Positions 28,501 through 28,921 of a stretch of DNA of 64,000 bases are shown in pieces. The notes under the pieces were generated by a model. It saw only the letters and a program-made list of their open reading frames with translations, ran no database searches and was not told the origin of the DNA. The position numbers and the translations under genes are program-made. Numbering within the stretch: position 1 is the first letter of the stretch; the number at the start of each line of letters is the position of its first letter. Source of the DNA: Chlorella sorokiniana (lineage: Eukaryota; Chlorophyta; Trebouxiophyceae; Chlorellales; Chlorellaceae); the NCBI GenBank assembly GCA_025917655.1, contig CP084618.1, positions 496,001-560,000 of the forward strand, given 5' to 3'.

Positions 28501-28735
28501 GCCGCGATACTCGAGGCGCCGCAGCCCCGTCAGCAGGCACTCGATCAGCTCCCGCTGCGACCGCGGCACTCGGTAATTGGCGTACCCAAAGATGCCGCAC
28601 ACTGCAGGAGACGGGGAGCACAGCGTGGTGAGGGAGGGCTGGCGGCGGCAGACTGGCGGCGGCAGACTGGCGGCGGCGGGCGTGCCCCTGTTGCAGGGCT
28701 TCCCTGGTTGCACCGGCAAGGGGCGGCGGCTCACT
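22516..28735 (-). CDS. GFAT: Glutamine:fructose-6-phosphate amidotransferase (GFAT)
   Basis: GFAT makes glucosamine 6-phosphate from fructose 6-phosphate and glutamine, the first committed step to UDP-GlcNAc for glycans and cell wall. The amidotransferase half shows CGIFGY with the nucleophile Cys2, [37 protein letters not shown] and [13 protein letters not shown]. The isomerase half has two SIS domains: [93 protein letters not shown] and the end [13 protein letters not shown]. The start codon is split: A at 28735, then a 133-base intron, then TGTGCGGC from 28601. Reading frame shifts by one base at 25024-25028, 25825-25829, about 26973-26985 and about 27926-27933, all in G/C runs inside conserved motifs, so these look like sequencing error and not decay. 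More than a dozen exons. TOM6 lies 45 nt upstream on the same strand. Confidence 0.95.
27184..27224. repeat. (TG)n microsatellite in a GFAT intron
   Basis: A nearly pure TG run in the intron left of the exon that begins [14 protein letters not shown] simple repeat. Confidence 0.9.
27812..27852. repeat. (CA)n microsatellite in a GFAT intron
   Basis: A CA run broken by one ACC, immediately after the donor of the [15 protein letters not shown] exon on the coding strand. Confidence 0.9.
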
Positions 28736-28780
28736 GGTTCACAGGGGTCCTCTGCACGCGGGCAGCACCGCAGGGGGCCT

Positions 28781-28921
28781 TCAGGCGCTCTTGGAGGAGG
28801 TGAGCAACTCCAGGGCGTAGGGGGCGACGCGGATGACCGCAACCGCTGCTGCAAACACCGCAATATTGCGCTTCAGCTCCGCCCGAGCGACGTTGGGGTC
28901 TCGTTTAGGAGCAGGAAACAT
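28781..28921 (-). CDS. TOM6: TOM6, small subunit of mitochondrial import pore
   Basis: A single-exon ORF of 46 residues. It starts [20 protein letters not shown] and continues into a hydrophobic stretch ([20 protein letters not shown], about residues 20-39). Plant TOM6 proteins have the same plan: MFPG start, charged helix, then one membrane segment containing V-I/V-R-x-x-PY, and a total near 50 residues. TOM6 stabilises the TOM complex in the outer mitochondrial membrane. The stop lies only 45 nt before the A of the GFAT start codon on the same strand, with no poly(A) signal between, so the two may share one transcript. The family match is from memory of the motif and is strong in both pattern and length. 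Confidence 0.85.

Follow-up and report, generated by a model that had tools for sequence, protein, structure and literature searches.

A TOM6-GFAT gene pair of Chlorella sorokiniana as a probable bicistronic nuclear gene with a second start codon predicted to be made by splicing

In a 64,000-nt stretch of the Chlorella sorokiniana genome (contig CP084618.1, positions 496,001 to 560,000; hereafter, the window), a short ORF for a putative TOM6 protein, a subunit of the mitochondrial import machinery, lies closely upstream of a gene for the amino-sugar enzyme glutamine--fructose-6-phosphate aminotransferase (GFAT) on the same strand. This arrangement raises the question of whether the two proteins are made from one nuclear mRNA or from two separately transcribed genes. 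The original prediction favored a dicistronic mRNA and described an intron-free TOM6 ORF of 46 codons whose end is separated by 45 nt from the A of the GFAT start codon; this layout was confirmed, with the ORF at 28921-28781 and the A at 28735. The features of the locus are as follows, in window coordinates.

28921-28781, minus strand: TOM6 (ORF1), 46 codons plus TGA, intron-free, with one match in the genome.
28780-28736, minus strand: inter-ORF gap of 45 nt, without ATG and without TGTAA.
28735, minus strand: A of the split GFAT start codon, the final exon base before the predicted intron, located in the sequence.
28734-28602, minus strand: first intron of GFAT, 133 nt, GTGAGC...CTGCAG, predicted from the sequence.
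28601-22516, minus strand: GFAT (ORF2), a multi-exon gene, from profile matches and exons recognized by eye.
28922-29195, no strand: stretch of 274 nt shared by TOM6 and a divergent gene, presumed to be a bidirectional promoter, with a 100-nt GC minimum of 0.46.
29196 to a provisional end at 32500, plus strand: divergent CTNNBL1-like (catenin-beta-like) gene, with its ATG at 29196 and a PF08216 match.

Plant-type TOM6 has a single membrane helix and resides in the mitochondrial outer membrane. The sequences that we take to be Arabidopsis TOM6 and TOM5 were used as references for the product of ORF1. The local alignment score with Arabidopsis TOM6 was 77, a value equalled by none of 5000 shuffled sequences (mean 20, sd 3.9), and that with Arabidopsis TOM5 was 29, with 66 of 5000 shuffles scoring as high. 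The product also fits what are presumably the marks of plant TOM6, namely a length of about 50 amino acid residues, an MFP start, and an R(V/A)APY motif. In a protein database search, the sole match was a protein of 46 residues with 93% identity (E 2.2e-18), and the 38.8-Mb genome, in 15 contigs, contained a single match at E<=10. The Pfam search yielded a Tom5 match below threshold (E 0.0069, 16.8 bits, cut-off 26.1), the best PDB match was a TOM5 chain and was weak (E 0.024), and the NCBIfam profile search yielded no match. Pattern searches for relatives returned 8 stretches in IMG/VR viral contigs and 40 in prokaryote genome contigs, none of which was confirmed by tblastn. We call ORF1 a putative TOM6 of the plant type.

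The second ORF was assigned to GFAT by profile matches. The GATase_6 match in its exons was above the cut-off (E 1.8e-14), and the matches to NF001484 (E 1.1e-77) and glmS TIGR01135 (E 1.2e-71) were both under the full-length cut-offs because the query comprised only 325 N-terminal residues. The N-terminal Cys nucleophile (MCGIF) and the glutamine amidotransferase domain are present, with Met appearing only after the predicted splice. GFAT of Helicosporidium was among the closest named matches listed, with 60% identity over 69% of the query. A second GFAT gene was found on contig C9 (437700-440200, minus strand), with 58% identity over residues 11-154. Exon 1 of this copy is ATGTGCG, immediately followed by a GTGAGT donor; it likewise has an intron near the start, 6 nt further in.

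The intron that had been proposed to split the GFAT ATG just past the inter-ORF gap was recovered as the best prediction. Its donor reads CCA|GTGAGC, and past the acceptor CTGCAG the sequence continues from 28601 as TG TGC GGC ATC TTT. Joining the A to TG gives ATG TGC GGC, the MCGIF start of GFAT; proteins of this family must have Cys directly after Met. Five A|GT sites in 29205-28602 could rebuild an ATG in this manner, among which the donor at 28735 scored highest (5.5) and the next scored -0.1, using a matrix built from 11 donors of this genome chosen by eye. In unspliced RNA, GFAT would begin with GTG TGC, and the intron contains no ATG. The claim that such RNA would express only TOM6 is thus upheld at the level of the sequence, since no ATG occurs from that of TOM6 to 28601. 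The GFAT start lies 15 codons past the TOM6 stop and shares the TOM6 reading frame; in a protein made by read-through of the TGA, the GFAT Cys would be buried, and an active enzyme would not be expected.

Thirteen proteins matched by the GFAT exon sequence (P0122-P0134, among the matches listed of 653) were fetched, of which two (P0122 and P0128) carry AVCGIF and 11 carry MCGIF with an adjacent Met. P0122, a JGI metagenome protein, showed 98% identity over 90% of a 60-residue query. Because AVCGIF is found in the protein letters, as in the GFAT of the window, the split start seems to be common to at least one relative, though it is not general. A literature search on intron-split start codons returned nothing on point by title among the matches listed.

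The dimensions of the locus were compared with those of known algal bicistronic genes. In Auxenochlorella protothecoides, bicistronic genes have a median inter-ORF length of 40 nt, as against 2518 nt for ordinary collinear ones; in Chlamydomonas, the two medians are 183 nt and 3415 nt (PMC11291117). The same report characterizes the algal set by a short ORF1, a long ORF2, short 5′-UTRs, and a depletion of start codons before ORF2. TOM6-GFAT matches this set in its gap (45 nt), its ORF sizes, and its ATG-free spacing. No ATG occurs in the 183 nt from the TOM6 start to the GFAT start; this spacing gives weak support, because 18% of stretches of that length on the minus strand of the window are also free of ATG (chance estimate 0.18-0.23). 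In a bicistronic locus, the start context of ORF1 would be weaker than that of ORF2; here the two differ only slightly, with gcaATGt (-3 G, +4 T) for TOM6 and accATGt (-3 A) for GFAT.

Among the published pairs, TOM22_SDHAF3 of Auxenochlorella protothecoides (Duenas et al. 2025, PMC11892635) likewise combines a small ORF1 for a subunit of the TOM complex with an unrelated ORF2 at a short distance, but it involves another TOM subunit and another partner, and the intron-split ORF2 start distinguishes TOM6-GFAT from it. OST4_FAM32A in the same report likewise has a short ORF1 ahead of an unrelated gene. At the TOM22 and OST4 loci of Auxenochlorella, leaky scanning was tested by altering the ORF1 start (PMC11892635 and a preprint). 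The words TOM6, glucosamine, and intron are absent from the main text of PMC11892635, which mentions splice variants of some bicistronic transcripts. REX1S-REX1B of green algae likewise has a short ORF1, of the Tfb5 type, but both of its products presumably function in DNA repair. For TOM6 and GFAT, in contrast, we know of no common pathway. The splice-made start codon of ORF2 is the one unusual detail of this locus, and the rest is an arrangement known from green algae.

Three published bicistronic pairs, TOM22-SDHAF3, REX1S(Tfb5)-REX1B, and OST4-FAM32A, were sought in this genome, and the first two were found with both members collinear and close. TOM22 (PF04281, E 2.4e-8) and an SDHAF3-type LYR domain (PF13233, E 4.6e-13, the best of three matches) lie on one strand of contig C8 (L007 1185-2500); the TOM22 stop and the domain match are separated by about 157 nt. 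At 122 nt from that stop lies the nearest ATG (2023 in L007), but it does not share the reading frame of the LYR match, and the open frame holds no other ATG that does, so the 122-nt gap represents an assumed start. A frame break was observed in SDHAF3 at about 2040 of L007, and the problem with its start is perhaps due to an indel error of the assembly within a run of C. Tfb5/REX1S (E 8.8e-11) and REX1B (E 1.4e-9) lie on the reverse strand of L006, in frame and separated by an 81-nt gap without ATG or TGTAA. The Pfam models used gave no match in the genome for FAM32A or for OST4, which we take to be a small protein; this does not show absence.

The alternative that survives best is that TOM6 and GFAT are two separate, tightly packed genes, although we regard it as unlikely. 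In this case, TOM6 transcripts would end in the gap or in the GFAT intron, and the GFAT promoter would be located inside TOM6 or its leader, giving overlapping transcripts. The GFAT 5′-UTR could indeed begin inside TOM6, and the C9 copy, upstream of which the genome search found no TOM6, exists without such a partner. On the other hand, a 3′-UTR and a promoter would hardly fit into 45 nt, and gene pairs known as bicistronic from other algae (PMC11892635) look similar in this genome.

Evidence on transcript ends was sought from TGTAA. The original prediction had pointed to the lack of TGTAA between the two ORFs, and the gap indeed contains none, but this observation has no discriminating power: TGTAA occurs 0.27 times per kb on each strand of a 264-kb sample, which corresponds to 0.012 expected occurrences in 45 nt, and the 3′ end of GFAT itself also lacks TGTAA, as does the whole minus strand between 18000 and 30000. 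Moreover, 143 TGTAA were counted on both strands of the 264 kb vs 115.8 expected, so the poly(A) signals of this genome are not clearly TGTAA and the gap may hold one, in keeping with two separate genes. TGTAA may serve some genes in this genome. One was observed about 71 nt past the SDHAF3 frame (L007 position 2548).

Base composition was used as a sign of promoter position, a sign that is only suggestive. Within 500 nt upstream of the starts, GC per 100 nt fell to 0.46 for TOM6 (at about 29149-29050) and to 0.43 for TOM22, against minima of 0.56 and 0.58 for the second ORFs SDHAF3 and REX1B, respectively; in the 900 nt before the first REX1S exon seen, the minimum was 0.38. For the GFAT of the window, 0.46 is reached only in the stretch upstream of TOM6, and the GC profile contains no AT-rich dip inside TOM6 or the 45-nt gap, which argues against a separate GFAT promoter as far as such suggestive dips go. 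Bins of 100 nt with GC <=0.46 made up 1.3% of the 264-kb sample. Upstream of the C9 GFAT, which presumably has its own promoter, GC dips only to 0.51. The 50-nt bins directly before the starts fail to separate first from second ORFs (GFAT 0.72, REX1B 0.72, SDHAF3 0.58, TOM6 0.62, and TOM22 0.60). The stretch 28922-29195 is common to TOM6 and the CTNNBL1-like gene, so the dip could be that of one or the other. The product of the CTNNBL1-like gene matched PF08216 (E 4.2e-24) with residues 88-165 of a 166-residue query.

Five ATG occur upstream of TOM6 at 29136-29057, the last of which is at 29057, so that a TOM6 leader could be up to 135 nt long without containing ATG. The best GT of this region is a donor-like AAG|GTGCGT at 29159 (minus strand, score 11.4) in the TOM6 leader. 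As a donor for the GFAT start it was rejected, since it cannot make the GFAT ATG; an intron in the leader that starts there might remove the ATG at 29136-29057.

A third arrangement, which we consider very improbable, is that some GFAT transcripts have a long first intron that encloses TOM6: an upstream exon ending in A, with its donor past 29003, would be spliced directly to 28601 and yield a GFAT-only mRNA, and other forms would carry TOM6. The second A|GT site at 29003 (CCA|GTGCAC) would define such an intron of 401 nt, but its donor score of -0.1 is far from the 5.5 at 28735, although this comparison is weak given the matrix of 11 donors chosen by eye.

Frame breaks were seen by eye in the GFAT of the window (minus strand) near 28440, 27905, and 25010, and the one near 27905 was also evident as two overlapping matches in different frames. 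Another was seen by eye near 30940 (plus strand) in the divergent CTNNBL1-like gene. The breaks in GFAT are probably assembly indels rather than signs of decay, because the near-identical P0122 protein reads in frame across the first of them (about 28440) and similar breaks occur in other genes, namely the CTNNBL1-like gene and SDHAF3. The idea that this GFAT is a decaying copy whose pairing with TOM6 has no meaning is the least credible of all: its breaks, the presence of a second GFAT on C9, and a genome search for the sugar-isomerase (SIS) domain expected at the C-terminus of GFAT (PF01380), with three matches on C9 but no match in the window, could be taken to favor it, but that search does not join exons, SIS-type residues are visible by eye in short exons of the window, and the 325 joined residues match the GFAT models well.

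We conclude that TOM6-GFAT is probably a two-ORF (bicistronic) nuclear gene. The dicistronic mRNA of the original prediction thus stands as the most likely reading, with two published pairs collinear and close in this genome, whereas co-transcription itself is something that we only infer. In such a gene, a single capped and polyadenylated pre-mRNA would start in the AT-rich stretch between the CTNNBL1-like gene and TOM6, run through TOM6 and the gap, and end past GFAT. Splicing of the first intron would join A to TG and build the GFAT start codon on the shared transcript. Some scanning ribosomes would then initiate at the TOM6 AUG (gcaAUGu, -3 G, +4 U), and others would bypass it by leaky scanning and, in the absence of any intervening AUG, would reach and initiate at the GFAT AUG (accAUGu, -3 A). 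It is further conceivable, though doubtful, that retention of the first intron has a regulatory role, in which case retained RNA would give TOM6 alone, spliced RNA would give GFAT by leaky scanning, and the retained fraction would set the TOM6:GFAT ratio.

Literature searches with TOM6 and "bicistronic" returned only a paper on a muscarinic receptor, and those with GFAT, Chlorella, and "bicistronic" returned none; the pair may already be included in supplementary lists of bicistronic loci. In the survey of Carrie et al. 2010 (PMC3095331), Tom5 and Tom6 were reported as undetected in Chlorella variabilis, whereas ORF1 suggests that a Chlorella-like alga has a TOM6 gene. TOM6-GFAT is an added candidate for the set of algal bicistronic genes, which are reported to be often missed by automated annotation (PMC12633428). 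If the proposed arrangement is true, the splice-made second start would provide a simple natural system for leaky scanning, one that suits tests of this process because removal of the intron or of the TOM6 ATG gives clear predictions.
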